A DNA stretch of 39,866 nt from Sulfurospirillum tamanense (lineage in GTDB: Bacteria; Campylobacterota; Campylobacteria; Campylobacterales; Campylobacteraceae), in assembly GCF_016937535.1 (NCBI RefSeq), contig NZ_JAFHKK010000023.1, positions 1-39,866 on the forward strand. The letters run 5' to 3'. Made by a program: the position numbers and the translations under genes. Of this stretch, positions 2,843-19,779 are shown one piece after another; position 1 is the stretch's first letter; each line of letters starts with the position of its first letter. Under the pieces are notes generated by a model that saw nothing but the letters and a program-made list of their open reading frames with translations, was not told where the DNA came from and made no database searches.

Positions 2843-3274
2843 ATGTCCAACACCCAAGAAGTTGCGTTAAAATACTTTCAAGAAGGCTACAATTGTGCCG
2901 AATCCGTCGTCCTTGCGACCACAAAAAACCCTGCCGCCACTGCCGTTGCTTCGGCATTTGGGAGTGGACTTTCCTGTACGGAAGGGATGTGCGGGGCACT
3001 TAGCGGAGGCGTGCTTGCCCTCTCTTTGACTAAAGGCAAAGGGGCGCGCCATGAGTCTGCAGAACTTGGCACAGAAGTCAAAGCCCTTGTAGAGGGGTTT
3101 CAAACCACCTTTGGCTCCACAGGCTGTTCAACACTGCTTGGATTTTCCCTCACCGACAAAGACGCGGGAGAAAAGTTCCAAGCCAAAGGTTGTTTTGAAA
3201 CCAAATGCTCTTTGTACGTCAAGTACATAATCGAAGAGCTAGATCACTTACTCAAACCTACACAACCCCTTTAA
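2843..3274 (+). CDS. C_GCAxxG_C_C family redox protein
   Basis: A 143-aa cytoplasmic protein of the C_GCAxxG_C_C family (named for its conserved Cys pattern). Visible are GYNCAES near the N-terminus, CTEGMCGALSGG in the middle, GSTGC, and CFETKCS near the end. The family is thought to bind a metal or Fe-S centre and often lies near radical SAM or redox genes; its biochemical role is not settled. The start ATG has AAAGGA 8 nt upstream. The gene converges on the ABC ATPase gene and overlaps its 3' end by 17 nt. The 988-aa fusion protein in the facing operon carries a similar CGxxGxCGAASG segment in its DUF5714 part, so the two may act in the same pathway; that link is inferred. Confidence 0.88.
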   Translation: MSNTQEVALKYFQEGYNCAESVVLATTKNPAATAVASAFGSGLSCTEGMCGALSGGVLALSLTKGKGARHESAELGTEVKALVEGFQTTFGSTGCSTLLGFSLTDKDAGEKFQAKGCFETKCSLYVKYIIEELDHLLKPTQPL

Positions 3275-4013
3275 GGGTTTCTAAAATAGCCTCGTGCATG
3301 GCACTAATCTCCAAGGCATGATGTCGCGAGGCTTTGGGTAGCGGGGGCGTGAGTGTAGAGAAAATCCGCCCTGGCTGGCTTGCCATCACCACCACCCTAT
3401 CAGAAAGCAACAACGCTTCACGAATCGCATGGGTTACCATCACCACGCCCATGTTTTTTTCCCTAAAAAAGCCCAACATAGCTTCATCCATCGCCTCTCT
3501 ACTGGCCTCATCAAGAGCTGAAAAAGGCTCGTCCATCAAGACCACATGAGATTCCATCGCCACAGCGCGCGCTAGAGCTGCACGTTGTTTCATGCCCCCA
3601 GAAAGCTGCCACGGATACGCCTTAGCAAAGGAGGCGATACCTGCGCGCTCCATGCACGCATAAGCTTTTTGGTGCTTTTGCGAAGCGGAAAAGCTCTTTA
3701 CATGTAAAGGCAACATGACGTTCTCTTCGATGCTTAACCACGGAAAAAGACCCGAATCTTGGGGAATAAAACTGCGCCGATAACTTGGACCATCCACGGG
3801 CATGCCACGGTGCAACACCACGCCGTCGCTTTTTTGCTCAAAACCCGCAAGCAACCGCAACAAGGTGGACTTTCCGCACCCGCTTGGCCCTACAATAGAG
3901 ACAAATTCCCCCACCTCCATGGAAAAATCAATCCGCTGCAAGGCCACCACACAGCGCTGTTCTTGGGGGAGACTGTACGCTTTACTCAACCCTTGAAGTT
4001 CAAATTCCAGCAC
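3258..4013 (-). CDS. ABC transporter ATP-binding protein (SsuB/TauB/NrtD type)
   Basis: A 251-aa ATPase with Walker A GPSGCGKST, a Q-loop IPQDSGLFPW, signature LSGGMKQRAALARA, Walker B VVLMDEP and an H-loop VTHAIREA. This is the nitrate/sulfonate/taurine importer subfamily. The start is GTG, with AAGGA upstream; it overlaps the end of the permease gene by 14 nt, so the two are translationally coupled. It is the last gene of the seven-gene operon that starts at 10857. A copy of the iterated palindrome (3697-3708) lies in the coding sequence and encodes the LHVK of MLPLHVKSF. The substrate cannot be read from the ATPase. Confidence 0.93.
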   Translation of the reverse strand: MLEFELQGLSKAYSLPQEQRCVVALQRIDFSMEVGEFVSIVGPSGCGKSTLLRLLAGFEQKSDGVVLHRGMPVDGPSYRRSFIPQDSGLFPWLSIEENVMLPLHVKSFSASQKHQKAYACMERAGIASFAKAYPWQLSGGMKQRAALARAVAMESHVVLMDEPFSALDEASREAMDEAMLGFFREKNMGVVMVTHAIREALLLSDRVVVMASQPGRIFSTLTPPLPKASRHHALEISAMHEAILETLKGVV

Positions 4014-4737
4014 TGCCCATCCTTACATGTAACAGACGCTCAACATAGCCAAAGAGGTATTTTTCGCTCACTATTCCTACCACGCAAATCAGCCCAATGG
4101 CAATAAACGCCGCTTCAAAATCCAGCGACCACCGCGACTGAATGATGGCAGACCCCAGTCCCACGCTACTACCCACAACCATTTCCGCCGCGATAAGCAC
4201 CCGCCACCCCACCGCAAGCCCCATGCGCATCCCTAGCAACAAAGAAGGGGCAAGAGCGGGTAAAACTACCATTCCCAAGGTGCGCATCCGTGAGAGGTTT
4301 AACATGCGTGCCATTTGCAAATGGTGTTGGGGAAATTGGCGCACGCTTGAAGCTGTATGGACAAATACGGGGCCAAAAGCGGTGATGACAATCATAAACA
4401 CCGTCGCCTTTTCGCCAATCCCAAAAAGCAACATGGCAAAGGGAATCCACGCAAGGCCAGGCATGAGCTGCAGCACCCCACCCACTTGCATCCCTGCTCC
4501 ATATAGCCACGACACCCTCCCGCAAAGCACCCCAAGCCCAAAGCCCAAGACAAGCGCTATGCCATAGCCCACGCCCCAGCGCTTCAAACTCATCCAAAAA
4601 TGCTCCCACACGGGTGATTGGTAGAGCAACTCCCCTTGCAAAAAGTGCCAAAACCGCTCAAACACCGCTGGAGGCAGAGGAAAGGGAATCCCGCGCGTCC
4701 ACTCTACCGTCCAACCCAAAAGGTACCACGCGCCCAA
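4000..4737 (-). CDS. ABC transporter permease (SsuC/TauC type), 5' end possibly frameshifted
   Basis: A binding-protein-dependent importer permease with five to six membrane segments. The coupling-helix region is ARMLNLSRMRTLGMVVLPALAPSLLLGMRMGL. The uninterrupted frame starts only at a TTG (4735-4737) with no ribosome site and a truncated first helix. Upstream, in the +1 frame, is a TTG at 4782-4784 with AGGGGAG four nt before it, reading MRLKALLAPFVGVLFF. One extra T in the T7 tract (4736-4742) would join that segment to ...LGAWYLLGW and rebuild a normal first helix. The longer form would overlap the binding-protein gene by 11 nt. Either a sequence error, a slippery tract or a real mutation is possible. 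Confidence 0.88.
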   Translation of the reverse strand: MGAWYLLGWTVEWTRGIPFPLPPAVFERFWHFLQGELLYQSPVWEHFWMSLKRWGVGYGIALVLGFGLGVLCGRVSWLYGAGMQVGGVLQLMPGLAWIPFAMLLFGIGEKATVFMIVITAFGPVFVHTASSVRQFPQHHLQMARMLNLSRMRTLGMVVLPALAPSLLLGMRMGLAVGWRVLIAAEMVVGSSVGLGSAIIQSRWSLDFEAAFIAIGLICVVGIVSEKYLFGYVERLLHVRMGSAGI

Positions 4738-4773
4738 AAAAACAACACTCCCACAAAAGGCGCGAGCAAAGCC

Positions 4774-5673
4774 TTAAGGCGCAACGCACTCCCCTAAGGG
4801 CCGCACACGCCCCAAGATGCCCTGAGCGACTAAAAATTCCCCCAAGGCTTCAAGGCTTTTTAGGTCCGCTTCTTCCCAGCCAACGCGGTAAAAATGGTAG
4901 GCCATCGCTTGCGTGGTCGCTTCTAGCGAAAGTCCCGTAGCAGCAGAAAGTATCTGGGCCGCTTCGTCAGGAAACGCGGCTATAAAGGCCGCACTTTGTG
5001 CCAAGGCCGCCTTAAGTGCAGGTAAAACCTTGGCGTGTTCTTTTAAACTACGCTCTTTGGCCATGAGCAAAAGCGGATAGGTATTGCCCGTGCCGCCAAG
5101 GCTCATCAGCCGTTTTCCCAAGCCTCTTTCCACTAATACCGAAGGGGTGGGTTCACTGGCCACCACCGCGTCTGCCTCACCGCTTGCTAGCGCTGTAGCC
5201 ATCAACGAAGGAGCCAAATCCATCATCTCTTTGTCTAATGAAAGGCCGAGGCTTTGGGTTTTTAGCAACAAGCCTCCATGGGTTGAGGTGCCAAATTTCA
5301 CCGCAACCCTCTTCCCTTGCAACTCCTCTAGGCCTGTAGCCAAAGAAGTTTTTGGCACCACCACCCAATGGCGCTCTTCACCTCCACCCAAAGGCATGAG
5401 CGCTTGTACCCTTGGGCAGTATTTTCCTAGGGCAATGAGCGCGGCGGTGTCTCCCATGGTGGCAAAATCCGCATCCCCAAACAAGAGCGCTTCACTGGTT
5501 GCAGGGCCGCTAGCAAAGCGTTTGGGGTTTATATGTAACCCTTGGGCTTCAAAAAACCCCTTGGCCACCGCCACAAGCATTACCCCATCCCCGATGCGGT
5601 CTTGATAGGCGATGGTAATGGGTTTTGCACATCCTAGCACCACACAAAAAAACATCCCCAACACACTCCGCAT
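4774..5673 (-). CDS. ABC transporter substrate-binding lipoprotein (NMT1/THI5-like)
   Basis: A 299-aa periplasmic binding protein of the NMT1/SsuA/TauA superfamily, with a signal peptide and lipobox VVLGC near residue 15, so it is probably a lipid-anchored receptor. Typical features are AKGFFEAQGL near the N-terminus, a GDADFATMGDTAAL segment and GKRVAVKFGTSTHGG. The ATG has AAAGGA upstream, inside the 12-nt gap to the fusion-protein gene. A degenerate copy of the iterated palindrome encodes LHINPK after AQG. It works with the permease and ATPase downstream. Ligand candidates in this superfamily include sulfonates, nitrate and pyrimidine precursors. The setting beside an ArsM-like fusion makes an organic thiol or metalloid compound worth considering, but that is conjecture. 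Confidence 0.88.
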   Translation of the reverse strand: MRSVLGMFFCVVLGCAKPITIAYQDRIGDGVMLVAVAKGFFEAQGLHINPKRFASGPATSEALLFGDADFATMGDTAALIALGKYCPRVQALMPLGGGEERHWVVVPKTSLATGLEELQGKRVAVKFGTSTHGGLLLKTQSLGLSLDKEMMDLAPSLMATALASGEADAVVASEPTPSVLVERGLGKRLMSLGGTGNTYPLLLMAKERSLKEHAKVLPALKAALAQSAAFIAAFPDEAAQILSAATGLSLEATTQAMAYHFYRVGWEEADLKSLEALGEFLVAQGILGRVRPLGECVAP

Positions 5674-5685
5674 GGTTTTCCTTTG

Positions 5686-8652
5686 CTAAAAAATAGGACA
5701 CTGCTTGCCATAGCAGTACTGGTTGAACTTTTTTTGATCGCATTTACTTAGTGCCGCGGCTTCAAGCTTTACATGTAAGAACGTTTCAGAGAGCTTAGCG
5801 GCGATGGTAAGGGCCGTCCACACTTCGCGGTTACAGCAGCGCGCCGCTTCATAAGTGGCGATTTCTCCTAGCACGGCGTGGGTGGCTTGTTGGGCCAGTT
5901 GTCTGCTTTGGGCTTTGACAGGCGAAGCACCCAAGCACACCGCAAACCCGATGCCCACTCCGCTTGCCGCGCCACACACTCCCAAAAATCCGCACGCGCC
6001 ACCCATCACGCTCGCACCGCGCGTTAGGGCTACATGTAAGGCATCTTGGGCCACGCTACCGCCACTGTTTTTAAAGGCGGTGACGATGATAGCAGGTACC
6101 ATGGCGTGGTGTTCGGGGCCATGTTTTGGCACGCTTGGATGCTTGCGGATGGTCTCATACAAAGCTAACATGTCTGTTGCGTTTGAATGGGCGCAAATAT
6201 GCTCGATGACTTCCAGTGCCTCTTTGGCATGGCAGGTGTCGCACACAAAGTGATTTTCCTTACATGTAACGCTGGTTTGCACGGTTTTACCGCAATAATA
6301 ACAGCGGTTTTCTTGGGAAACTTGGCTGTACACCAACCCCTCACCACACACCATGCAGTTGGCCGTTTTTTTGGTGAGGCTAAAACTCGGAACGGCTTTC
6401 GCGGGAGCCAAGCTGAACCCAGCGGGCTTGGGTTTTTCAGGGGGCACGGCGCACGCACAGCCTTGGCCTTCTTGGTTGCTTACAGCGCCCGTGCTATCAA
6501 AAATAAACAGTTCGCTCTCCAACGCTTTAGCGTAGTGGGCGGGAATGTTAGCTTTAACGCCTTTTAAAAGCACGGTGCCCTCTTCCAACACGAGGCGCGC
6601 TAGGGGGCCTTGGTACATCACCGTTTGCAAGGAACTGGTTTGAGGTTTGTGGGCTTCAAAGGTGAGCGAATAAAAACTGTGGCCTTGGACTTGGCGGTAA
6701 AAAAAGCGCTTAAGTAAGCGCACGTTTTCAAAACCGCTCTCACGCAACAAGCCTAGCAAGTGGGTGATGGTGAGCGCCCCGCCGATGCACTCGCCACTGA
6801 GCTTACTGTCGTTGCGAATGCTCGCACTTGGCTCTTCGTCGCACACCACATCCGAGACCACCAACCTGCCGCCATTTTTAAGCACCCGAAAAATCTCCCC
6901 AAAGAGTTTGCGCTTGTGAGAAGAGAGGTTGAGCACACAGTTTGAGGTGACCACGTCGTAGCTTTGGTCAGGTTCTGGCAAAGACTCTAGGTAGCCTTTC
7001 ACAAAAGAGAGGTTGTCATAGCCTAACTGTTGCGCCACCTCCTTTGCCCCTTTTGAGGCGATGGCAAGCATCGAGTCAAGCATGTCTACCCCGCGCACTC
7101 TGCCGCTCTCGCCGACTAATTTTGCGGCGATAAAACACTCTACCCCGCGCCCCGAACCTAGGTCCAACATGGCTTCATTTGGCACTAACGCAGCGTCTAA
7201 TACGGGGCTTCCACACCCGTAGCCTCGAAACCGCAAGGATTGGGGGATGTGGGAAAGGTACTGCTCTTCGTAGCACACGGGGTTAAGGATGTCTTCTTTG
7301 TCTTCCAAGGCCGCGTCGTGGTAAAAGTCCTTCACAAGGCGCAAAGACGCACTCTCACCCGTGGCCACAAGGCAATTGGAATGCACACACGCTACGCCCT
7401 CATTAGCTCCGCAACTGTAGAGAATCTCACCCATTTTCAGTTGCAACCCGACGCCTTCCACGGGGCTTTCTTTGGCGGCTTGGACGATGAGACTTAGGGC
7501 CAGTTTTTCCATCACGCGCTCATAGGGGTCATCACCCATAAAGGTGTTTGCGTGGGCAAAACTGTGGTCAAAGTCGCCTCCGCCAAGCAAAAAGCGCAAG
7601 GGAGTGGTGAGGTTAACAACAGAACTTTCACGGATGGCCTTAGCCACAGGACTTTGCAAGGCTTCGGCGATGCTTCGCCCTTCCATAAGGAGTGCCTTTT
7701 CGCCGACCATGGCGGCACTGGGGTAAAAACTGCCATCATACGCCAACGCCGTGCGCCCCGAACTTGACCCATCATGTACCGTGCCCGCGGGGGCGAAGAT
7801 TTGGGTTTTTAAAACTTCAAGGTTGTCGATGATGACCCCCTCTTTTTCTGCTTGGGCGCAAGCGCGCAAGAGGGCGTCAAAGAGGACTTTTTCGTCCATG
7901 AGTGGTTCTTGTTGGGCGCGCCCTCTGGAAAAGGGCCACATGAAATGCACATGGTTTGCCCCAAGACTCTTGGCAAGGCGCACCACTTCGGGGGTTTCGT
8001 GCACGTTTAGTGGGTGCAAACACAAGGAAAGGGAGTAGAGATAGCCCGCATTTTTAAGCCACACTAGATTGCGCTCTAGTTTTGTAAAACTTCCTTTACC
8101 GCGAATGGCTTCGTGGGCTTTAGGGAGTCCATCAAGACTGACTTGAAAATGCACGCGTGCTTTAGGGTAGTCCTTATATGTAAGGGTTTTTTCGAGCAAC
8201 AAGCCGTTGGTGAGTACCGCCACTTCGGTCTCTTTGAACGCCAAAATCGCTTCTACTAACGCGTTAAACTCAGGATGCACCGTGGGTTCGCCACCGCTTA
8301 GCACAAAAAGGCGTGCCCCAAGAGCGTACGCTTCTTCTACCAAAGGCAACAGCTTGGCTAAGCTCAGCGTGTCTTTTTCGCTAGGACTAGAGCTAAACAA
8401 ACAGTGGGTACATGTAAGGTTACAGCGGTTGGTGAGGTGAATCCAAAACTCTTGCAAGGGGACTTTTGCCTGTTTTTTGGGCGCGTACACCGCGGGGTTT
8501 GGGGTGCCGATGCGCGTGCGCAAGGTGCGAAGGGTGTCGCTCTCTTCCTCTAAACACAGGGCTTCATCGGCCTTGGGACTTGGCACAAACCAGTGGGCAC
8601 TTTGGGTGTGCACATACACAGGGGTATTTTCGTAAGTAAACCGTTTCCACAT
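5686..8652 (-). CDS. Radical SAM / ArsM-like methyltransferase / DUF5714 three-module fusion protein
   Basis: A 988-aa cytoplasmic enzyme. Module 1 (about 65-350) is a radical SAM domain with CNLTCTHC (C77, C81, C84) for the 4Fe-4S cluster and LSGGEPTVHP. The following SPASM-like stretch has serines (GSSSGR, FYPSAAM) where an auxiliary-cluster protein would usually have cysteines. A Cys-rich linker (413-427) precedes module 2 (about 435-670), a SAM methyltransferase very like ArsM: LDLGSGRG, GVDMLDSML, and the contexts SNCVLNLS and GECIGGAL, which match arsenic-binding cysteines of ArsM, plus GYGCGSP. Module 3 (about 760-988) has zinc-finger-like pairs (CMVCG, CYYCG, CDTC) and a DUF5714 region with CGFLGVCGAASG and RCC. 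It is preceded within 10 nt by the VTT gene and followed by the ABC importer. The methyl acceptor is unknown. Confidence 0.88.
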   Translation of the reverse strand: MWKRFTYENTPVYVHTQSAHWFVPSPKADEALCLEEESDTLRTLRTRIGTPNPAVYAPKKQAKVPLQEFWIHLTNRCNLTCTHCLFSSSPSEKDTLSLAKLLPLVEEAYALGARLFVLSGGEPTVHPEFNALVEAILAFKETEVAVLTNGLLLEKTLTYKDYPKARVHFQVSLDGLPKAHEAIRGKGSFTKLERNLVWLKNAGYLYSLSLCLHPLNVHETPEVVRLAKSLGANHVHFMWPFSRGRAQQEPLMDEKVLFDALLRACAQAEKEGVIIDNLEVLKTQIFAPAGTVHDGSSSGRTALAYDGSFYPSAAMVGEKALLMEGRSIAEALQSPVAKAIRESSVVNLTTPLRFLLGGGDFDHSFAHANTFMGDDPYERVMEKLALSLIVQAAKESPVEGVGLQLKMGEILYSCGANEGVACVHSNCLVATGESASLRLVKDFYHDAALEDKEDILNPVCYEEQYLSHIPQSLRFRGYGCGSPVLDAALVPNEAMLDLGSGRGVECFIAAKLVGESGRVRGVDMLDSMLAIASKGAKEVAQQLGYDNLSFVKGYLESLPEPDQSYDVVTSNCVLNLSSHKRKLFGEIFRVLKNGGRLVVSDVVCDEEPSASIRNDSKLSGECIGGALTITHLLGLLRESGFENVRLLKRFFYRQVQGHSFYSLTFEAHKPQTSSLQTVMYQGPLARLVLEEGTVLLKGVKANIPAHYAKALESELFIFDSTGAVSNQEGQGCACAVPPEKPKPAGFSLAPAKAVPSFSLTKKTANCMVCGEGLVYSQVSQENRCYYCGKTVQTSVTCKENHFVCDTCHAKEALEVIEHICAHSNATDMLALYETIRKHPSVPKHGPEHHAMVPAIIVTAFKNSGGSVAQDALHVALTRGASVMGGACGFLGVCGAASGVGIGFAVCLGASPVKAQSRQLAQQATHAVLGEIATYEAARCCNREVWTALTIAAKLSETFLHVKLEAAALSKCDQKKFNQYCYGKQCPIF

Positions 8653-8661
8653 ACTACACGC

Positions 8662-9348
8662 TCACGTTGAGGATTTTGCCCTAAGGGCTTTGATTTTTTT
8701 GACCGCTACGGGCAAGAGGGCAAGCAGGCCAAAAAGCACGAGTACCAAGGCCATCTCTTTGGTAAAAATATCGCCCAAGTGGTCGATGCGCGAAAGCTGA
8801 CTTCCCGCGTACGTGTAGGCAAATCCGCCGGGGATGATGCCGATAAACGTGGTGATAAAAAAGGTTTTAATATCGATGCGCGTCAGGCCGCAAAAGAGGT
8901 TGACCAAGAAAAACGGAAACACAGGGATGAGCCGCAAGGCAAAAAGGTAACTGTACCCATCGCGCTCTAGTTCGGTGTTGAACTTGGCCAACTCGTTGGC
9001 GTATTTTGCTTGCAAACTTTCCCCTAGCACAAAACGCGCCACGTAAAAACTCGCCACCGCCCCAAGGGTCGCGCCAAGGACGGCAAAAATAAGCCCAAAA
9101 AACGCCCCAAACATAAAACCCGCCGCGAGGGAAAGCACCGTGGCGATGGGAAACATGAGTGCCACCGAAAGGGCATACAGCGCCACAAGCCCAAGGGCGC
9201 TTAAGAAGTAGTGCTCTTGCACAAACAACAGCAAGGTTTCGCGCTTGGCTTTGAGCATTTCAAAGGAAACATACGCATCAAGTCCAAGGATGTTTACAAG
9301 CACAACAAGCCCTACCACGAGGGCAAGAAGGAGGAGTTTTTTCTTCAC
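8662..9348 (-). CDS. TVP38/TMEM64 (VTT-domain, DedA-like) membrane protein
   Basis: A 228-aa inner-membrane protein with an N-terminal helix and a VTT core: MFPIATVLSLAAGFMFG, then GATLGAVASFYVARFVLG, and RLIPVFPFFLVNLFCGLTRI with IIPGGFAYTYAGSQL, ending in a helix and basic tail. The start is GTG (9346-9348), one nt after the stop of the upstream gene, with AAAGGGA supplied by that gene's tail. VTT proteins move lipids or other substrates across membranes and are found in several arsenic and mercury gene clusters. Its place directly before the ArsM-like fusion gene fits a transport role, but the substrate is not evident. Confidence 0.88.
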   Translation of the reverse strand: MKKKLLLLALVVGLVVLVNILGLDAYVSFEMLKAKRETLLLFVQEHYFLSALGLVALYALSVALMFPIATVLSLAAGFMFGAFFGLIFAVLGATLGAVASFYVARFVLGESLQAKYANELAKFNTELERDGYSYLFALRLIPVFPFFLVNLFCGLTRIDIKTFFITTFIGIIPGGFAYTYAGSQLSRIDHLGDIFTKEMALVLVLFGLLALLPVAVKKIKALRAKSST

Positions 9349-9349
9349 A

Positions 9350-10417
9350 TTATCCCTTTAACGATGCAATCATGCGTTTGGTTTTGTAGCGGTTTATCCA
9401 AGAAGTAAGTGTGCCGTGTTTTGGCTGCGTCAAGGTTTTGGCGACCGTCTCATCAAAGAGCAAGTCTAGCAAATGCACCCCATTTTTGCCGCCGCGTGAC
9501 ATGGAGCTACAGCACTCTTGGCAGTAACTCACGATGGTTTCGCACTCGGTCTGGTGGGCGCGGGAGACCATCTGTTCACGGGCAAGTTTGGGGTTGGTGA
9601 GGGCTAGCATCCCGCCGCTTCCACAGCACTGGGTTTTGTCGCGGTTGAACTTGAACTCCTCAAAGGGGAGTTTGATAGTACGTAAAATCTGGCGTACCGC
9701 TTCGTGCAACGGCTTTTCGAGGCGCGTCGGACAGGGGTCGTGCAAGGCCACAGGCTTGGCCTCGCTAAAGTCCCGCTGAGGCACGCCAATCTGCGCTAAA
9801 AGCTTGTACAACGAGAGGGTTTTGACCTGTGGCGAGAGGGTTTTGAGGCTCATGTAACAGTTCTCACACGCGGTCACCACGGTCGTCACGCCAAGGCGGT
9901 CGATGTCGCGCTCTAGCAAACTGTAAAACCCTTCAAATCGGTCGATGTCGCCCAACACCCGCGTGGGTTTGCCACAGCACTGCATGAGCACGCTCATCCC
10001 TGGACACGCTTCTTGCAAATGCGCGATGATGGACTTCACAAGAGCGGGAGAATAGGAACTCAGGGCGCATCCGGGCATGAACGCCATGTGGGAAAAGTCG
10101 GTGGCACGGAATGTTTTGATGGTCGTAAGCGCTTTTGAAAAACTCAAGACTTGGTGAAACAACACCGCACGGTAGCCAAAATTTTTAAGCTCCGTAGGGG
10201 CAAGTTCCACTTTGCGCTTTACAAAATGCGCTTCAATGCTGATGTCTTTTGGGCACACATGGGCGCAATACCCACAGGCCGCGCAGGAAAAGGCCACAGA
10301 AGCGGGAGATTCTTTGATGGTTTCAAGAAGGGTTTTGGGAGAGTCCGTAAACTCCCCCATCATCAAACACCCCTTCATGCACGCTTTACAGTCGATACAC
10401 TCGGTTGAAGGGTTCAT
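9350..10417 (-). CDS. (Fe-S)-binding CCG-domain protein, HdrD/GlpC-like
   Basis: A 355-aa iron-sulfur oxidoreductase subunit. The N-terminus has two 4Fe-4S ferredoxin motifs (CIDCKACMKGC and CAACGYCAHVCP). Two CCG domains follow: one with MPGCAL ... QCCGKP, the other with HDPCPTR ... QCCGSGG and YCQECC. CCG domains bind a non-cubane cluster in heterodisulfide reductase HdrB and quinone-linked clusters in GlpC/LldE-type proteins. No membrane helix is seen, so it is probably cytosolic or peripheral. The ATG overlaps the rhodanese stop codon by one base (TAATG), so the two are coupled. It could supply or remove electrons for disulfide or persulfide chemistry in this operon. Confidence 0.88.
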   Translation of the reverse strand: MNPSTECIDCKACMKGCLMMGEFTDSPKTLLETIKESPASVAFSCAACGYCAHVCPKDISIEAHFVKRKVELAPTELKNFGYRAVLFHQVLSFSKALTTIKTFRATDFSHMAFMPGCALSSYSPALVKSIIAHLQEACPGMSVLMQCCGKPTRVLGDIDRFEGFYSLLERDIDRLGVTTVVTACENCYMSLKTLSPQVKTLSLYKLLAQIGVPQRDFSEAKPVALHDPCPTRLEKPLHEAVRQILRTIKLPFEEFKFNRDKTQCCGSGGMLALTNPKLAREQMVSRAHQTECETIVSYCQECCSSMSRGGKNGVHLLDLLFDETVAKTLTQPKHGTLTSWINRYKTKRMIASLKG

Positions 10418-10857
10418 TATTGTGCGAGTACGTCGCTGATTTTAGCACGTGGCCATTTTTCTTGACCCCCTTTGAGGGTAAACAGTTGGTCTTTGCTGAT
10501 GCCATTTTCAAGGTAAAAATCATAGGCGCGATCCGCTCCGCCACCGCCACGCGGGCACACGATGACCACTTTTTGGCCAGGCTTGATAGAAGGAAGCACT
10601 GCGGCAAGGGCTGCTTTTTCCGCGTCTGTTTTGACGGGGTACGCATACGTGTCTACAGCACCTTTGAGGTGTTCTTTGTCAAAGCCAGGTTTTTCTTGGA
10701 TGTCTACAATGACCACAGACTCAGGCGCCGTACGAATCAACGCTGCTGTTTCTTCTGCTGTGATGTAGTTGTATTTACCACCAAAAAACCCAAACAAAGT
10801 GCTGTTTAGCACCACCAACAAACCTAAAGCTACCGCTACCGTGCGAAGCATTTTCAT
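10417..10857 (-). CDS. Exported rhodanese-domain protein (first gene of the operon)
   Basis: A 146-aa protein with an N-terminal signal or anchor (MKMLRTVAVALGLLVVLNS...) and a single rhodanese domain. The active-site loop is CPRGGGGA, with the expected cysteine. The ATG has AGGAGT 7 nt upstream. It is close in sequence to the next rhodanese gene (11061-11501): both share the VVIVDIQ/VALVDIQ, EHLKGA, VIVCPxGGG and KINDIL/KISDVL blocks. Rhodanese proteins carry sulfane sulfur on the Cys; a periplasmic position suggests handling of sulfide, polysulfide or another thiophile outside the cytoplasm. The glycine-rich active loop is unusual compared with the common CxxGxR form. Confidence 0.9.
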   Translation of the reverse strand: MKMLRTVAVALGLLVVLNSTLFGFFGGKYNYITAEETAALIRTAPESVVIVDIQEKPGFDKEHLKGAVDTYAYPVKTDAEKAALAAVLPSIKPGQKVVIVCPRGGGGADRAYDFYLENGISKDQLFTLKGGQEKWPRAKISDVLAQ

Positions 10858-11060: not shown

Positions 11061-11501
11061 TTATTTGTAAGTGTCATCTTGCACTAAAATATCGTTTATT
11101 TTGTCTCTTGGCCATCCGTACTGCCCATCGGTCAAAATGAACACGCGCGCCTTTGGTATGCCATTTTTGACCAACACATCTACCGCACGCTCTGCGCCGC
11201 CGCCTTTTGGACACACGATGACTACCTTGTCTTCAGGCTGAATCTGCCCCATGATGGCTACCAAGCGCCCTGCTTCTTCGGCGGTATTTACCGGAAATGC
11301 GTAAGTAGGAATGGCACCTTTGAGGTGCTCTTCGTTAAAATCCTCTTCCACTTGAATGTCCACAAGTGCCACGGCACCGCCTTCACGCACCAGTTGCGCC
11401 ACTTCGGGGGCGTCGATGTAATTGTACGCCGCTTTTTTGCCGCCACACCCTACTAACACAAGACCAAGCAACACTGTTGCCATCACCAAACGAAACTGCA
11501 T
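11061..11501 (-). CDS. Rhodanese-domain lipoprotein
   Basis: Starts at ATG 11499-11501 with AGGAGT four nt upstream, giving 146 aa; the frame is open further upstream, but that part has no signal or ribosome site. The N-terminus MQFRLVMATVLLGLVLVGCGGKK has a lipobox LVGC, so it is probably lipid-anchored in the envelope. The rhodanese domain has active-site loop CPKGGGAE. It is a paralogue of the 10417-10857 protein, and promoter, leader hairpin and coding sequence all correspond, which points to a tandem duplication. It lies divergently from hcp across a regulatory region of about 400 bp (11502-11906). Confidence 0.9.
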   Translation of the reverse strand: MQFRLVMATVLLGLVLVGCGGKKAAYNYIDAPEVAQLVREGGAVALVDIQVEEDFNEEHLKGAIPTYAFPVNTAEEAGRLVAIMGQIQPEDKVVIVCPKGGGAERAVDVLVKNGIPKARVFILTDGQYGWPRDKINDILVQDDTYK

Positions 11502-11580
11502 AAGTACTCCTAAAAATGGGTTACATGTAAAGAAAAAAGGGGGTGACCACAAAAGCAGAAAGAGGTTGCATAAGATGGTC

Positions 11581-13259: not shown

Positions 13260-13289
13260 GAAGCCTTGAGGGGCTTTCTCTATTTTTTT
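13260..13289 (+). terminator. Rho-independent terminator of hcp
   Basis: AAGCC (13261-13265), loop TTGAGG, GGCTT (13272-13276), then a T-rich tail ending in T7 (13283-13289). The T-run overlaps the stop codon of the convergent HipA gene. Confidence 0.65.
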
Positions 13290-14868
13290 AAGCGACCAAC
13301 CAACCAAACTCTTTTAATTTCTCTGCGCGTTCAAAAAACTTCTTTTCCAAAATATCTGAAAATTCCATCTCCTCTTTTAAGGCTCTTTTATCTTTAGAAT
13401 AAGAGCTTATGGGCTTGCGCGTAAAAAAAGGCATTGAGCCTAGCGTTTTGAGGCGTTCTATGTAGTGCGGCATTTTATCGACGTATATCAAAGCCGTTTC
13501 TCTAGCAAGTCTTAAAAAATCTGAAAAAGAGACATCTAACTTTTGACAAATAACTTTAAAATCATTGGGTCTGATGTTTTGTTGTTTGCCATTGATCGTT
13601 AAGTGTGATTCATGACCATAACATGAATCATAAAGAGCTGTTGTTGCAACATCGTAAAGTGGCGACATAAACGAGCGATTTTTTGTGTGCATGATGCTTA
13701 AATTTTTGGTGTGCATATCTTCATGGACGATTAAAAGTGAATAGAAAAGATAGTGTAAAAAAATCAACCGCTCTTTTTTATCTAAAAGCTCTTTGGCAAC
13801 CCTTTGCGCCATTTTTTCGGTTGAAGTATCGTATTTTGTTTCGCTATTGAGTCCCATCAAAGAAGAAACATTGGTTTTGGCAAAAACACTGTTTTGGTAC
13901 TTGTCAAATCGCTTGATGATGTAATGCCAATCTTCCCCATCTTTGATGATAGCAGACCATGGCACATCAAAGCCCAATTCGTTTTTAGCAAAACTCATAT
14001 GGAGGTGTTCGTTCACCGACAAATAGGGAATATATTTTTGTGCTTGTGGGTCAGTATACTCTTTGTTGTATGGCTTGATAAAATAGTATGTTGGCTCACT
14101 TTTTTGTGGTTCGCGCAAGACCCCATGAGCCTCATCCATAATAACATGCATTTTATGTTGTTGCCCCGATAAGCCAAATTGAACAGAAGGTTGCGTTGCT
14201 TTGGCTATATCTTTGATAAACAATTTTTCCTTATTGATTTTAATATCCAGCGCTAGCACATTGGGAAAGTCATGCTTGCCCAAAATCTCTTTTTTGTGCG
14301 TATGGTAAAAAATACCGACATCACTATTGGGCGTTAAAACACTCTTCTCTTTTGAAAAAGACAAATCTCCCACATTTTGTTCAAGTGCCAACAATAATGC
14401 AATCACCGAAGATGTTTTTTCTTGGTATTCCAATGCTTGCCTGTCTATTCCTTCAGGCAACAACTCTTCAAATACGGGAAATAACTCTGTCGATTCAATG
14501 AGTGCAAAAGGAGTGTCTAATGTTGGAATGATTTCGATGGGTTCAGAAAAAAGATAATTTATATCGTAGGAAAATATAAACTTTTCCAAAGATGCTGAAA
14601 ACCCAACGACGCCAGCATATCTTTTGTTCTTATACACATAGGCAAAAAAATCCATGATTTCTTCAGGGGAGCGAAGTCGATAGGTCGTACTTGAAGCACT
14701 GCCATAAGAGACAACTCTTCTTAAAGTGATTAACTCTTTGATGTGCCTTTGCAAAGTCCTTGGCTCAATTTTGTATTTTAAATTGCTCATTATTTCACTT
14801 AAGGATAGATTGGTTTTCTTGTCAGCAAATAGTTTTAAAATATCGATATATTCTCTTTTCAGCTTCAT
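13288..14868 (-). CDS. HipA-like kinase with fused N-terminal winged-helix DNA-binding domain
   Basis: A 526-aa protein. Residues 1-66 look like a winged helix-turn-helix (LSLSEIMSNL, EPRTLQRHIKEL, SYGSASSTTYRL wing). The rest matches HipA Ser/Thr kinases: AGVVGFSA, LLPEGIDRQAL, SGQQHKM (234-240), the ATP-site lysine in YFIKP (about 265), NEHLHMSFAKNELGFDVP, IKRFD, the catalytic HEDMHTKNLS (D384) and metal-binding SPLYDV (D406). Classical HipA needs a separate HipB antitoxin and repressor; here no hipB is adjacent and the DNA-binding part is fused. The ATG has AAGGA 6 nt upstream. Codon and base use is much more AT-rich than hcp, which suggests transfer. It may be a one-gene toxin/regulator or a defence kinase. 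Confidence 0.82.
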   Translation of the reverse strand: MKLKREYIDILKLFADKKTNLSLSEIMSNLKYKIEPRTLQRHIKELITLRRVVSYGSASSTTYRLRSPEEIMDFFAYVYKNKRYAGVVGFSASLEKFIFSYDINYLFSEPIEIIPTLDTPFALIESTELFPVFEELLPEGIDRQALEYQEKTSSVIALLLALEQNVGDLSFSKEKSVLTPNSDVGIFYHTHKKEILGKHDFPNVLALDIKINKEKLFIKDIAKATQPSVQFGLSGQQHKMHVIMDEAHGVLREPQKSEPTYYFIKPYNKEYTDPQAQKYIPYLSVNEHLHMSFAKNELGFDVPWSAIIKDGEDWHYIIKRFDKYQNSVFAKTNVSSLMGLNSETKYDTSTEKMAQRVAKELLDKKERLIFLHYLFYSLLIVHEDMHTKNLSIMHTKNRSFMSPLYDVATTALYDSCYGHESHLTINGKQQNIRPNDFKVICQKLDVSFSDFLRLARETALIYVDKMPHYIERLKTLGSMPFFTRKPISSYSKDKRALKEEMEFSDILEKKFFERAEKLKEFGWLVA

Positions 14869-14886
14869 ATTTTATCCTTAAGTTTA

Positions 14887-14900
14887 TTGCGACACATATT
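14887..14900. promoter_or_regulatory. Operator-like repeat, proximal copy
   Basis: TTGCGACACATATT. With the copy at 14955-14968 it forms a 14-bp inverted pair with one mismatch. It lies 18 bp before the HipA start codon and is a plausible autoregulatory site for the fused HTH. Confidence 0.5.
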
Positions 14901-14954
14901 TAGTTGTATTTAAGTTAATGCAAATACTATAGCCACTTTAATTAAAATAAGCTT

Positions 14955-14968
14955 AATATATGTCGCAA
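14955..14968. promoter_or_regulatory. Operator-like repeat, distal copy
   Basis: AATATATGTCGCAA, the inverted partner of 14887-14900. The 54 bp between them hold a possible minus-strand -10 (TATAGT), so a protein bridging both sites would cover the promoter. Confidence 0.5.
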
Positions 14969-15032
14969 AAACCTTGAGATGATTTTTGAGTTAAGTGGCT
15001 TTATATTTTCACCTAGAATAGCCCACAACCCC

Positions 15033-15093
15033 CACCCAATAGGCGACGTAGAAGGCGACATGGAAAATCTTCTCACTAAGAAACTGCGTAAAT
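15033..15093 (+). pseudogene. Remnant of the hcp 3' end
   Basis: This stretch aligns with the last ~60 nt of hcp (13182-13240) with about eight substitutions and one missing base. It still encodes GDVEGDMENLLTKK, where hcp has GDVESDMENLLIKK. Like hcp it is followed by the iterated palindrome. No other hcp sequence precedes it. It marks either a former second hcp copy or the far end of an insertion that duplicated the hcp 3' end. Confidence 0.8.
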
Positions 15094-15106
15094 TAGCTTT
15101 TTAACA

Positions 15107-15143
15107 CTTTACATGTAAAGCCTTTGGTGCTTTACATGTAAAG
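15107..15143. repeat. Two tandem copies of the iterated palindrome
   Basis: CTTTACATGTAAAG occurs at 15107-15120 and 15130-15143, nine bases apart. It separates the HipA segment from the STAND gene; the STAND stop codon follows within two bases. Confidence 0.9.
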
Positions 15144-15144
15144 A

Positions 15145-18100
15145 CTAACAGTTATCCATAAACTCCCTTTTTTTGGACCACTCGACTCGGCTTTTAATCG
15201 AAGCGCACTGTTTTTTGAGTATCTGAAAATGGTCTAATAAATCAATGTCATCTTTAAAGATCTCACCCAATAGTTCTAAATCTTCCAGTCTTTTGGTGAA
15301 ATACACAACGCTACTCCCCGACCATCCGTGGTTTGATGGCTCTAGTTTTAATCGCTTAAAGTCTTCAATATTTTTATTCACACAAATAAAGACCTTTAAA
15401 AGCCTTTTCTTTATCTTTCCGTCCATTTTGCAAACAACCATACGGAATAAAAAATCAATTTCATCTATGGTGTGCTCTTTGACATATTTCTCTAAAAACT
15501 CAATTTGTTTTTCTTTTGGCATTAGCGTATCGTTAAGCCTATCATTGCCTCCTTTGAAAAAAAGTTCTAGAGCCGACTCAGCAAAAGATGGAAAAACTTC
15601 TCTTTTTTTCTCAGTGGAATAAAATAATGAAAGTATGGATGTCACTATCGGAAAAATATCTTCTCTGGCCCATAAAAAATTAAAGTCCCGATATTGCGTC
15701 TTTCTTTTTTTAAGAGAAAACAAAAGGTGTTCTCCTAAAAAATTAGGTGCATGGTTTAGTAGTAAATTTAGTATTTTCCCATTGTGGTCAAAATGATCAC
15801 ACCGTTCACTTCCTAGATCGTATGCCCATTTCGTTAGATTCAAATCTTCCTTGATAAAGCATTTTATTTCGTCTTCTGAAAGCAAATCTAGTCGAAAAAT
15901 AGAATTACAAGAGCTTAGACAGTCTTCATTTTTTGACTCTCTTGCTTTTATAATCCTAAAAATTTCAACCAGAATTATCATCTCTTTTTGAATAAAATTT
16001 TCAATCCGAGACTTGTGGATACAAAGACAAGAAAGGTTTGCGGTTTGAAAAAAGGTTAGCAATTTTTCTTTTTCATTTCCATCAATTTCCCAAGATTCTA
16101 AAAAGGAAAAATAAGCCATCCGCAGCTGTTCGGCCGTTTTTGGTGACTGCTCTTCAATTAGTGACCATGTGGCATCTTTTCCAAAGCGCTTATAATAAAC
16201 TCTTACGGTATTGAAACAATACAGCCCAAAACCGTCTGCATGACTCAAATAAAAACAAACAACCGAATCAAGGATGGCATCAGAAAAATCATCCAACAAT
16301 GAAAAAAAGGTACAAAAATTTCTCTCAATTTCAAGACGAATACTTCCCCATTGAAGTGCTTCACCTATAAGCAAAATAAGTTGTTTAAAATCTTCTAATT
16401 CGAAGCCCTCAATGTACTCTCTTATATCTTCAGCTATCAACGCTTCAATCTCTTCATATTCTATATCTGAATGAGATTCCATAACATCGCGATGCCCCCT
16501 CGAAAAGAGTTGGTACGCTCTAACCGCTTCGTGAAAAAAATATATTGATAATTCAGTAGTTTCAACAGGGAGTCTTTCGTAATTGCAACATTCTATAAAA
16601 GCATTCACAAGATAACAGTGTCTATTGTTTCCAGGGTTTAATTTAGCATAAAAAAATGGTGGTAAAATCTTAATATCAAATCGCACAGTCCCGCGCCAAG
16701 GCGAACAGTAACTCCCTAATAACCCTAACACTTCCTGTTCTTTATTTGCAAGTTGTTTAAAAATATTTTCCCATATTTTTTTCCTAAAACCCTCATGTTC
16801 TTCTCCAAGAAAATGCTCAAGCCATGCTTGTGTTAATGAAAAAAATAGTGCATCTAGTTCGGGGTATATTTTCATTTTTTCAACTAACTTATCCAAAAAA
16901 AGTGCACATCTTTCTTGTGCTTGTATGACACTATCTTTGTCATGATATTCGGTTAATATTTCAATGATTTCGCTATTTTTACTTGGCCGCTTAATACAAT
17001 ATTCCAGCATCAAAGCTTGTGTCATGGAGCAAGAATCCGTTATTTTTAAAAGCTTTCCAAAAAAATAGAGATAAAGGCTTTCACTAAAACGACTTTCTTC
17101 TTCCAAATTATTGATTTTCTCTTTAAGATATTGAAGCGTTTCGAGAGGTTTTAAAAAACAAAAGAGCTCCAGCAGAGATTCTGTGCGTCTTTCGTTTACA
17201 CCAATAGACTCACTGTAAATTTCATTAATAGCCCCAATCAAAGCCCCCTCAACAGCTTCGCTCGAAAAATCTTCCAAAATTGGATAAAACGTATCCCTAA
17301 TGCGTTCTTGGTTTTTTTCTAGAAATGGCTCCAAGAAAGCTTTTACATGTAAAAGCTTTTTATTAAATACCATTTCATAAAAAAGATAAGTAGCGAGTAT
17401 TTGGTCGGAAACTTTAACTATCTCATCTTCATACATATCTGCAAGCTCAAGGCTGTGAAGTTTTTGCGCCGTACGCCAAAAGGATTCTACATCAACACCA
17501 AAAATAGACTGCACTTCCTGTATTTGCTCTAGATTATTTTTATCAACAGCACCATAAAAAGCAATGATTGCCGCAGCCTTTAAAAGTATTTCATCTTCTT
17601 CAATCTCAATATCTTCATCAACGGAGGCAAAAAATCTTTGGTAAATAGTGGAAATATTTTCCAAACCGACCAGCCCCTTATCTTGCTCAAGTAGTCGGAG
17701 CATCATTATCATAAAGCGAGGATTGCCTTTTGATACAGCCACAATTTTATCAATATGTCGCCAATCCCTCAGGCCATATTTCTCTAAAAAATACCTCATG
17801 TGTTTATGTTCAAATGGCTCTAAAGTTACAATATCCTCTGCAAGCCATTCGTAAGCTTCTAACAACTTTTTAATTTTTCCCATTGCATACCCGCGAACCG
17901 TGAGCACTAATTTAATATCACCATTTTTGATTTTCTCTGAGAAAAATTCTAAAAAATATTCTAATCCATAAGAAATACGATTCGCATCATCAATCAACAC
18001 TAAAAACTTTTCTTCAGAAGAAAAATAAGTGCGAATATCATCCATAATATCCACGCTTCCACGCTGAAGAATGCAATAAAGTTTGCGTTTTTCATTTGAC

Positions 18101-18780
18101 GCATATACTCTGCAACACTCTAGGGCTAATTTTGTTTTTCCAACCCCTGGAATTCCAGCCAGTGTTGTGATGGAATTTTTTTCAATAGATGCAAGGGTTG
18201 CTTTTTGCTCATTTTCACGAAAATACAGTTCTCCCTCTAAAGGAATTGCATAGCGAGTATTGGAGTAATGCTTCAGAAAATCATCAATTTCTAAAATTTG
18301 CCCCGTATCTGCCTCTACATGTAAAAATTCTTGGGCCAAATCAGGGTGGTGATTTAAAATTTCATTAGCAATAGCAGAAAGTGTCAGCACCGTGCAACTA
18401 ATATTTTTTTCTTGGCACTTTTTGCTTAATGTATTTATTTCTTTTGGTCCCAATTTGGCATTGCAAGCAAGGATAATTTCTTGAATATTGCTTATAGCAA
18501 TGCCTGTCTTTGAAGCATCAAAACATTTTTCCAAATCACCTAAAAACTTAGCCTTTACGCCACTCTTTTGAGTTGTATATTCGACAAATATATAATTGCC
18601 GTTGGAAAGAGTTATTAAGGTGTCTGGAGTTCCTGCGGTTGGCTTATCTTCACCGGACTTAGTACCTATAGAATGAATCAGATAGCCGTATTTCTTGCTT
18701 AAGTATCTATCTATGAGTTTATGAAAAACTGAATCATTTATGTTGGAAAGTTCTTTTTCTATTGCATTAATTTTAGACAT
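15145..18780 (-). CDS. Nuclease-like / STAND NTPase, Avs- or NLR-like defence protein
   Basis: A protein of about 1211 aa, starting at ATG 18778-18780 (MSKINAIEKELSNIND..., with AAGGTG upstream); the frame is open 30 codons further without a good start site. Residues 1-150 resemble a PD-(D/E)XK nuclease fold: GTPDTLITL (D53) and FVEYTTQK (E67). A P-loop STAND ATPase follows: Walker A GIPGVGKT (209-216), Walker B FLVLIDDAN, and LTVRGYAMGK. The C-terminal ~750 residues are helical with weak repeats, as in sensor regions. This order (effector, STAND, sensor repeats) is that of Avs/bNLR antiphage proteins, which oligomerise on sensing a phage protein. The gene is strongly AT-rich, and a 24-bp version of the iterated palindrome lies inside it. 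Antiphage function is inferred. Confidence 0.78.
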   Translation of the reverse strand: MSKINAIEKELSNINDSVFHKLIDRYLSKKYGYLIHSIGTKSGEDKPTAGTPDTLITLSNGNYIFVEYTTQKSGVKAKFLGDLEKCFDASKTGIAISNIQEIILACNAKLGPKEINTLSKKCQEKNISCTVLTLSAIANEILNHHPDLAQEFLHVEADTGQILEIDDFLKHYSNTRYAIPLEGELYFRENEQKATLASIEKNSITTLAGIPGVGKTKLALECCRVYASNEKRKLYCILQRGSVDIMDDIRTYFSSEEKFLVLIDDANRISYGLEYFLEFFSEKIKNGDIKLVLTVRGYAMGKIKKLLEAYEWLAEDIVTLEPFEHKHMRYFLEKYGLRDWRHIDKIVAVSKGNPRFMIMMLRLLEQDKGLVGLENISTIYQRFFASVDEDIEIEEDEILLKAAAIIAFYGAVDKNNLEQIQEVQSIFGVDVESFWRTAQKLHSLELADMYEDEIVKVSDQILATYLFYEMVFNKKLLHVKAFLEPFLEKNQERIRDTFYPILEDFSSEAVEGALIGAINEIYSESIGVNERRTESLLELFCFLKPLETLQYLKEKINNLEEESRFSESLYLYFFGKLLKITDSCSMTQALMLEYCIKRPSKNSEIIEILTEYHDKDSVIQAQERCALFLDKLVEKMKIYPELDALFFSLTQAWLEHFLGEEHEGFRKKIWENIFKQLANKEQEVLGLLGSYCSPWRGTVRFDIKILPPFFYAKLNPGNNRHCYLVNAFIECCNYERLPVETTELSIYFFHEAVRAYQLFSRGHRDVMESHSDIEYEEIEALIAEDIREYIEGFELEDFKQLILLIGEALQWGSIRLEIERNFCTFFSLLDDFSDAILDSVVCFYLSHADGFGLYCFNTVRVYYKRFGKDATWSLIEEQSPKTAEQLRMAYFSFLESWEIDGNEKEKLLTFFQTANLSCLCIHKSRIENFIQKEMIILVEIFRIIKARESKNEDCLSSCNSIFRLDLLSEDEIKCFIKEDLNLTKWAYDLGSERCDHFDHNGKILNLLLNHAPNFLGEHLLFSLKKRKTQYRDFNFLWAREDIFPIVTSILSLFYSTEKKREVFPSFAESALELFFKGGNDRLNDTLMPKEKQIEFLEKYVKEHTIDEIDFLFRMVVCKMDGKIKKRLLKVFICVNKNIEDFKRLKLEPSNHGWSGSSVVYFTKRLEDLELLGEIFKDDIDLLDHFQILKKQCASIKSRVEWSKKREFMDNC
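17336..17359. repeat. 24-bp perfect palindrome inside the STAND gene
   Basis: The core TTTACATGTAAA is extended symmetrically by AAAGCT on the left and AGCTTT on the right. It is the longest copy in the window and is translated as KKLLHVKAF. Confidence 0.9.
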
Positions 18781-18894
18781 AATATAACGCACCTTGTCTT
18801 CATAAAGATTTATTAAGATTTTACCATTATTTGCCAATAGCATTATTTCTAAAATTGTCTTCATTTTCAAAACAGTCGAAGGTTTTAATTCTCT

Positions 18895-18917
18895 CGTAAA
18901 TCTTTACATGTAAAGAT
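18895..18917. repeat. Palindrome copy between the STAND and Fic genes
   Basis: This 23-mer is identical to 13234-13256 at the hcp end. Bases 18902-18924 are also identical to 20025-20047. It lies in the 312-bp spacer between the divergent STAND and Fic genes, which otherwise holds a GTGGGCCCAC palindrome and the Fic promoter. Confidence 0.9.
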
Positions 18918-18969
18918 AAAAAGTGGGCCCACATCTTCCCTGTTTTGTTCTGAATCTTCTGATGGTTTT

Positions 18970-18978
18970 TGCTATAAT
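18970..18978 (+). promoter_or_regulatory. Extended -10 promoter for the Fic gene
   Basis: TG-C-TATAAT with no convincing -35 at 17 bp. It lies about 115 bp before the chosen Fic start. Confidence 0.45.
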
Positions 18979-19092
18979 CGCTGGGTGTGAATAAATAAGG
19001 CTTTAAACTCCAAATGATGCTAAATCAGGGTTGTTTTGGCAAGCAATAGTGTCCATCAAAAGATATACAAAACGACAGGAGAGCAACAAAAA

Positions 19093-19779
19093 ATGAAAAA
19101 TTTAAATGCACTATCCTTAAAACAAAGAGAAGAACTTTTTAGGCAACTTCGCATCTCCATCACCCACCACTCAAACGCCATGGAAGGGACTACATTATCA
19201 TACGGCGAGACGAAAGAATTACTTGAACTTGGACGCACTGCAGGACACAAGCCACTGGGCGAACAGCTTGTGATACTGGGGTTTGCAAAAGCATATGACG
19301 TCATAGTTCGCGAAGCTTCAAACAAGGAAAGTGTTATCGATAGCAGTTTTATTAAAGATATTCACGCCATCATGTTTGAGGACGCATTAAAAGTAGCACC
19401 TGAGTATGTATCTAAACCCATTGGGGCCTATAGACTGGATGAAAGGCATATAAAAGGGGTAGAGGTAAAACTCTCTTTACCCCATAGGATTTCAAACGAT
19501 GTTGAAAATCTACTCTATCGATTTTCTAGCAATAAAATGGACTTGCTAGATATAGCAGAATTTCATATTCTCTTTGAAAGAATCCATCCCTTTGCCGATG
19601 GCAACGGAAGAGTGGGAAGACTCCTAATGGCGCATCAAGCCATACAAAATAATATCGTCCCACCACTCATTGAAAATGAACACAGGGGTGATTATCTAAA
19701 AGCTATAAACAATAAAGACGACTTGTGTACATTTTTGGATGAGAGTATCACTAAAAGTTTAGCGTTGATAGACATTTAG
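19093..19779 (+). CDS. Fic family protein (probable AMPylase), class II
   Basis: A 228-aa protein from the ATG at 19093, which has AGGAG 11 nt upstream; the frame is open to a TTG at 19036 without a ribosome site. The Fic core HPFADGNGRVGR (about 165-176) is intact, with the catalytic His and the nucleotide-binding loop. An inhibitory motif SNAMEG, (S/T)xxxE(G/N), lies at 27-32 before the core, which makes it an autoinhibited class II Fic. Such enzymes transfer AMP or other nucleotides to target proteins. It is AT-rich, lies in the defence island, and is followed 7 nt later by an antitoxin-like fragment. The target is unknown. Confidence 0.88.
   Translation: MKNLNALSLKQREELFRQLRISITHHSNAMEGTTLSYGETKELLELGRTAGHKPLGEQLVILGFAKAYDVIVREASNKESVIDSSFIKDIHAIMFEDALKVAPEYVSKPIGAYRLDERHIKGVEVKLSLPHRISNDVENLLYRFSSNKMDLLDIAEFHILFERIHPFADGNGRVGRLLMAHQAIQNNIVPPLIENEHRGDYLKAINNKDDLCTFLDESITKSLALIDI

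Follow-up and report, generated by a model that had tools for sequence, protein, structure and literature searches.

A seven-gene operon of Sulfurospirillum tamanense encoding a radical SAM, ArsM-type and DUF5714 fusion enzyme: a likely carbon-arsenic bond-forming module of arsenosugar type

What is made by an enzyme that joins a radical S-adenosylmethionine (SAM) part, a methyltransferase and a cysteine-rich domain in one polypeptide? The question is raised by a tight seven-gene operon on the minus strand of a 39,866-nucleotide (nt) contig of Sulfurospirillum tamanense (NZ_JAFHKK010000023.1; contig C23 of a 2.46-Mb Campylobacterota genome), the whole of which is called the window here. In order of transcription, the operon encodes a rhodanese, a CCG iron-sulfur (Fe-S) protein, a VTT membrane protein, a 988-residue fusion enzyme, and the binding protein, permease and ATPase of an ATP-binding cassette (ABC) importer; with a facing C_GCAxxG_C_C gene it spans positions 2843-10857. 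The operon is probably the carbon-arsenic (C-As) bond-forming module of an arsenosugar-type organoarsenic pathway, in which the fusion replaces ArsS plus ArsM. This reading stands on gene content, linkage, complementarity with ArsS and conserved arsenic-binding cysteines.

The radical SAM enzymes ArsS and ArsL are known to make C-As bonds (PMC12159101, PMC8552651), and the substrate of ArsS is arsenic (PMC12159101). We surveyed the same 397 Campylobacterota genomes for the fusion, for ArsS (TIGR04167) and for TIGR04283. The fusion is encoded in 15 genomes and ArsS, above its cut-off, in 17, with zero overlap. Strong TIGR04283 matches occur in 32 genomes (29 above cut-off and three at 170-180 bits; the next best match scores 109 bits), and these are exactly the fusion set plus the ArsS set. 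The naive probability that all 15 fusion genomes would fall within the 32 is 1e-18, which assumes independent genomes, and kinship makes the true figure much larger. The window's genome has no ArsS match at E <= 1e-40 (the TIGR04167 cut-off is 300 bits), and ArsS is not among the models listed for the fusion. Both states occur in the window's family (f1), and fusion species and ArsS species are found together within genus g59 as well as within genus g64. In the glycosyltransferase tree, the ArsS genome G220 (genus g64) groups with the fusion genomes G395 and G191 at 100/100, as expected if the C-As-forming enzyme was swapped while the sugar genes stayed. Outside Campylobacterota, TIGR04283 was matched at E <= 1e-40 in 15 of 17 fusion genomes (nine above cut-off), and ArsS is present in one.

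Genes named for arsenosugar synthesis are also physically linked to the fusion. In most Sulfurospirillum, a bifunctional TIGR04282/TIGR04283 protein and an S-methyl-5-thioribose-kinase-like gene adjoin the fusion operon on the opposite strand. The bifunctional protein of S. diekertiae exceeds both cut-offs (TIGR04282, 169 bits against 134; TIGR04283, 240 bits against 182), and the kinase-like protein beside the fusion scores 235 bits against a cut-off of 275. The kinase and glycosyltransferase are kept with the fusion where other genes are gone (L050) or are placed between VTT and the fusion (L047), and in another locus (L055) the glycosyltransferase directly follows the fusion, consecutive on one strand. 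The window's genome carries both genes next to each other on contig C32, with TIGR04282 at 153 bits and TIGR04283 at 205 bits, above cut-offs, and its kinase retains the HGDLHTGS...D.EF..FGP..FD.G motif of true methylthioribose kinases.

ArsS clusters in family f1 (genera g3, g4 and g6, probably Campylobacter) have a similar gene content. Their tight order is a TIGR04282 protein, usually two VTT proteins, TIGR04283, CCG, ArsS and usually C_GCAxxG_C_C; one of them (G239) has in addition ArsM, an aquaporin-type channel and an exported-looking rhodanese. PF09719, the C_GCAxxG_C_C family, lies within about 3 kb of TIGR04283 in 12 ArsS genomes of f1 that lack the fusion. In 11/11 cases, an APH-type kinase forms the C-terminal part of the f1 TIGR04282/DUF2064 (CofC-like) protein (by Pfam on one, by BLAST on the rest), and this gene fusion suggests consecutive steps. 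In two further loci (L094 and L096), an ArsS-ArsM fusion (705 residues in L094) stands beside TIGR04282, TIGR04283 and VTT and adjoins a methylthioribose/5-deoxyribose salvage set; the VTT proteins of these clusters are 51-52% identical to that of the window. In three different architectures the kinase thus keeps company with the CofC-like nucleotidyltransferase and the glycosyltransferase, and the route would appear to run from sugar-1-phosphate to activated sugar to glycoside, in that order. The sequence-only reading had remarked that VTT and ArsM-like genes meet in arsenosugar-type clusters, a hint that is strongly supported by these gene neighbourhoods and the exact complementarity with ArsS. 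It had also proposed a possible new pathway; the locus is better described as a pathway of known, probably arsenosugar, kind with a new enzyme architecture.

The fusion consists of an RRE (RiPP recognition element, where RiPP is a ribosomally synthesized and post-translationally modified peptide)-like N-terminus (about residues 1-60), a radical SAM core with a twitch/SPASM-like C-terminal part (to about 400), an ArsM-type methyltransferase (about 441-735) and a cysteine-rich DUF5714 part (about 762-988). The radical SAM CX3CX2C motif is C77/C81/C84, which is invariant in 15 Campylobacterota homologues and nearly invariant in an alignment of 26, some rows of which end at a contig end. In the predicted model of the fusion (predicted local distance difference test, pLDDT, 79.5), residues 458-690 match the arsenite methyltransferase CmArsM (4fr0) with Z 26.9, a root-mean-square deviation (rmsd) of 2.1 over 215 residues and 42% identity. 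The As(III)-binding cysteines of CmArsM, C72, C174 and C224, align to C480, C572 and C622 of the fusion, which are invariant in the 26 homologues. Against NCBIfam PRK11873 the domain scores 197.9 bits, under the 263 cut-off, so by sequence it is ArsM-like and not a member of that curated family. Residues 1-396 of the predicted model match residues 3-450 of the sactipeptide maturase CteB (Z 28.0, rmsd 3.6), other RiPP maturases score just under CteB, and the folds closest to the radical SAM part belong to RiPP and sulfatase maturases. The CteB match covers the RRE-like N-terminus, where the secondary structure predicted for residues 2-47 is compatible with an RRE.

The C-terminal domain matches DUF5714 (PF18978) over residues 816-987 with 186 bits, against a gathering score of 26.2. 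Together with its N-terminal cysteine-rich lead, it has 14 invariant cysteines within the aligned 227-residue region. DUF5714 alone models confidently (pLDDT 85.8, predicted template modelling score 0.86), and the model has no usable match in the PDB (best VIA Z 3.7, Foldseek E 1.1), which does not imply a new fold. We found no mention of DUF5714 in the literature searched. The facing C_GCAxxG_C_C gene, the sole PF09719 match in the window's genome, had been read as sharing a cysteine motif with DUF5714. Agreement between the two is weak (hhalign P 0.014). The alignment runs collinearly through the CG motif and the C-terminal cysteines, and its score was reached by 0/150 column shuffles; the shared motif is weakly supported. 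No solved relatives of either protein were found by sequence.

The gene set recurs with the fusion. Of 19 further Campylobacterota genomes in which the DNA upstream of the fusion could be read, 18 have rhodanese, CCG and VTT ahead of it on its strand, and S. arcachonense (G191) is the exception. Many Sulfurospirillum carry two VTT genes here, and some carry two rhodanese genes. The importer lies downstream in 5/20 genomes with readable downstream DNA, and a convergent C_GCAxxG_C_C gene lies <=2.5 kb from the fusion in 4/20. The association of the operon genes exceeds chance. Because of these counts, the unit is rhodanese-CCG-VTT-fusion, and the importer and C_GCAxxG_C_C gene are accessory. The idea that the genes form one functional unit, which rare co-occurrence in other genomes would speak against, is supported for rhodanese, CCG and VTT with the fusion and weakened for the importer and facing gene. 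Full-length fusions at 45-49% identity are encoded in Desulfuromonadales, Desulfobulbaceae and kin, where VTT is the sole recurrent close neighbor (L055, L060, L061, L066, L069). A search for plasmid-borne fusions had no match at E <= 1e-60. One fusion gene (G055, L036 10080-10160) is interrupted in the linker that leads to DUF5714; this looks like a frameshift, and we rejected a conserved two-gene form. A CCG gene is also split, in G397 (L025 6624-7726). These two splits are either sequencing errors or real decay.

The CCG protein scores 233.7 bits against NF045663 (cut-off 530), and the binding protein scores 115 bits against TIGR01728 (cut-off 163.5). The operon rhodanese has an N-terminal hydrophobic signal, as read from its sequence, and is predicted to be exported. 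Sulfur transfer had been among the roles first suggested for the locus; because of this signal, cytosolic transfer from the rhodanese to the fusion is unlikely. A second exported rhodanese is encoded about 200 nt away from the operon and is possibly related to it. Rhodanese and arsenic genes meet a second time in this genome, in an ars operon on contig C39 (L120 2180-6243) that encodes ACR3 (377 bits), ArsR-type, ArsC-like and ArsP-type proteins, thioredoxin and rhodanese; the exported-looking rhodanese and small thioredoxin are beside the ArsP-type and ACR3 permeases.

From these data we infer which reactions take place, in which order, and what DUF5714, CCG, VTT, rhodanese and importer contribute. 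The ArsM-type domain would methylate arsenite bound by C480/C572/C622. The radical SAM domain would then couple this methylated arsenic to part of SAM; as with ArsS, that part would most likely be the 5'-deoxyadenosyl group. The cysteines of DUF5714, with electrons from the heterodisulfide-reductase-like CCG protein, may keep arsenic trivalent and thiols reduced, or may hand As(III) between sites. A putative nucleosidase would take off adenine; such a step has been proposed for algal arsenosugars (PMC10456119). The kinase would phosphorylate the resulting 5-substituted 5-deoxyribose, as methylthioribose kinase does with methylthioribose, and the TIGR04282 (CofC-like) and TIGR04283 parts of one protein would activate and then transfer the sugar. 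VTT and the exported rhodanese may act at or outside the membrane. More speculatively, the accessory importer might bring in a sulfonate-like aglycone or other precursor, since it belongs to the sulfonate/NMT1 superfamily and sulfonate arsenosugars exist.

Comparison with known systems places the operon closest to ArsS with ArsM. In both, a radical SAM enzyme and an arsenite methyltransferase occur alongside TIGR04282/TIGR04283 glycosyltransferases, and the f1 ArsS clusters share CCG, VTT and C_GCAxxG_C_C as neighbors. Unlike ArsS, the fusion has an RRE-like N-terminus and DUF5714 and has no kinship to the C-terminal half of ArsS: the two radical SAM enzymes are alignable over the general core only (71-211), and the Cys of the ArsS motif 'DGKIYNC' is Ser312 in the fusion, where it is nearly invariant. 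In the arsinothricin pathway, ArsL and ArsM are likewise a radical SAM enzyme and an ArsM-type methyltransferase that act sequentially on arsenic (PMC8552651), but the window locus has no arsQ-like exporter and is instead linked to a kinase and a glycosyltransferase. Comparison with the double selenoprotein MbdU (NF045648) and the Sao transporter (SaoA/SaoP/SaoX) was based on model scores and one review. The C-terminal 230 residues of the fusion match MbdU at 139 bits against a cut-off of 600; however, the fusion has only Cys, and its radical SAM and methyltransferase parts are outside the matched range. SaoA is the best match of the importer ATPase (199 bits, cut-off 360), and the other subunits match Sao models too (SaoP 89 of 295, SaoX 27 of 300), whereas the nearest family of the binding protein is SsuA. 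With every subunit far under its cut-off, we rejected a Sao/selenoprotein identity.

Several points weigh against an arsenosugar role. By model, the radical SAM part is not ArsS and the C-terminal half is unrelated to it; the nearest folds are the maturases named above, and an RRE-like N-terminus would be superfluous for ArsS-type chemistry. The sugar genes of the window's genome are outside the operon, on contig C32, and an arsenic regulator gene is absent beside the operon. Campylobacterota species are non-independent samples, and 'arsenosugar' in TIGR04282 and TIGR04283 is database naming, largely from context.

Other functions could be considered for the operon. Arsenic detoxification without a sugar, in which the fusion methylates arsenite, the radical SAM part repairs or adds another group and the glycosyltransferase link reflects shared habitat, would fit the intact ArsM domain and the ACR3 and ArsP-type genes of the genome. 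We consider it unlikely, as the genome encodes a separate ArsM as well (332 bits), and the ArsS complementarity among TIGR04283 genomes and the kinase/glycosyltransferase linkage would need another reason. The same logic could apply to selenium, tellurium, antimony, mercury or a thiosugar instead of arsenic: MbdU and ArsM_AhpD_UU, families related to the cysteine-rich and methyltransferase parts, are selenoproteins, the rhodanese and CCG families are of sulfur type, and the kinase resembles methylthioribose kinase. The arsenic enzyme ArsS (PMC12159101) nevertheless occupies the place of the fusion in the same gene set, and all three ArsM arsenic ligands are conserved in sequence, which makes another element distinctly improbable.

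RiPP or protein maturation, with a peptide bound by the RRE-like N-terminus and the SPASM-type fold and modified by the radical SAM, methyltransferase and cysteine-rich parts, agrees with the fold matches to CteB and other RiPP maturases. However, there is no plausible small precursor-peptide open reading frame in or beside the operon (a distant one lies outside this search), the 9- and 12-nt gaps flanking the fusion are too short for a precursor gene, the ArsM-type arsenic ligands are invariant, and there is no RiPP exporter or protease. This explanation is very unlikely. We favor the arsenosugar-type module. As a tentative and rather doubtful extension, the fusion could be a second, independent type of C-As-bond enzyme with a radical SAM part from a RiPP-maturase-like branch, perhaps attaching another fragment of SAM or carrying arsenic within the molecule on DUF5714, and its product could be a new class of organoarsenical.

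All eight genes are present at the positions listed in Table 1, and their named domains exceed Pfam cut-offs. The rhodanese and CCG genes overlap by 1 nt, and gaps of 1, 9 and 12 nt follow between CCG and VTT, VTT and fusion, and fusion and binding protein. The binding protein-permease gap is 36 nt as read, the permease and ATPase genes overlap by 14 nt, and the convergent C_GCAxxG_C_C gene shares 17 nt with the 3' end of the ATPase gene. The coordinates and domains thus bear out the earlier description of genes packed with overlaps or gaps of 1-36 nt. A sister genome (G001, locus L022) has the same gene order and a fusion that is 95% identical. There the permease has 16 additional residues and its gene shares 11 nt with that of the binding protein, and a T-run at about 4736-4744 is one base short in the window relative to a frame-preserving alignment with the sister; judging from this alignment, the ancestral operon probably lacked the 36-nt gap. 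The difference reflects either a real N-terminal truncation or an assembly error. Promoter and terminator scans at the operon gave results no better than shuffles; one 10/12 site lies ahead of the rhodanese gene (11011-10983).

Table 1. Genes of the window locus and of related ArsS neighborhoods, with positions and supporting matches
Feature	Position	Strand	Evidence
Rhodanese-like protein, 146 aa, operon gene 1	10417..10857	-	PF00581 36.5 bits
CCG/HdrD-like protein, 4Fe-4S dicluster and CCG domains, 355 aa	9350..10417	-	PF02754 46.5 bits, Fer4_17
VTT/TMEM64-type membrane protein, 228 aa	8662..9348	-	PF09335 97 bits
988-aa fusion	5686..8652	-	radical SAM 76, Methyltransf_31 103, DUF5714 186 bits
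ABC importer substrate-binding lipoprotein, NMT1/SsuA superfamily, accessory	4774..5673	-	PF13379/PF09084 50 bits
ABC importer permease, start uncertain	4000..4737	-	PF00528 (BPD permease) 65.7 bits
ABC importer ATPase	3258..4013	-	PF00005 104 bits
C_GCAxxG_C_C redox-type protein	2843..3274	+	PF09719 65 bits (gathering score 27)
Second exported rhodanese, lipoprotein-type signal	11061..11552	-	PF00581 39 bits
TIGR04282-APH kinase fusion	L088 6134-7645; equivalents in L084-L093, L102		
ArsS-ArsM neighborhoods with true methylthioribose kinase (MTRK), MtnA and class II aldolase	L094 1798-12204; L096 7080-15353		

The window has other features of note. The palindrome TTACATGTAA occurs in 19 copies in 39.9 kb, compared to 0.05-0.16 expected from Markov models, at positions that include 3698, 4023, 5769, 6260, 11001, 11521 and 13243 and are often intragenic. 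It is similarly dense in most Sulfurospirillum loci, and enrichment was not seen in one Sulfurospirillum (G173) or in Campylobacter-type or Desulfuromonadales loci. It is a highly iterated palindrome and possibly serves as an uptake- or HIP1-like signal. A low-GC stretch at 13288-19779 (about 35% compared to 43-54% elsewhere, from about 14000) encodes a HipA-like protein, a 1241-aa putative NTPase and a Fic-type protein, as named from their translations, and looks like a mobile or defense island. An 844-aa protein encoded at 26292-28826 has, by eye, NMT1/THI5-like, solute-binding, PAS and GGDEF parts and would be another NMT1-type sensor.

If our interpretation of the operon is true, a C-As-forming enzyme in one polypeptide would be available in culturable anaerobes (Sulfurospirillum), and DUF5714, C_GCAxxG_C_C and CCG proteins would gain a candidate role in arsenic handling. 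The later route would run from kinase to CofC-like nucleotidyltransferase to glycosyltransferase, mirroring methylthioribose salvage, and Campylobacter-type species with ArsS clusters would be predicted to make arsenosugar-type compounds. The operon would thus represent a little-studied way for anaerobic bacteria to form carbon-arsenic bonds.

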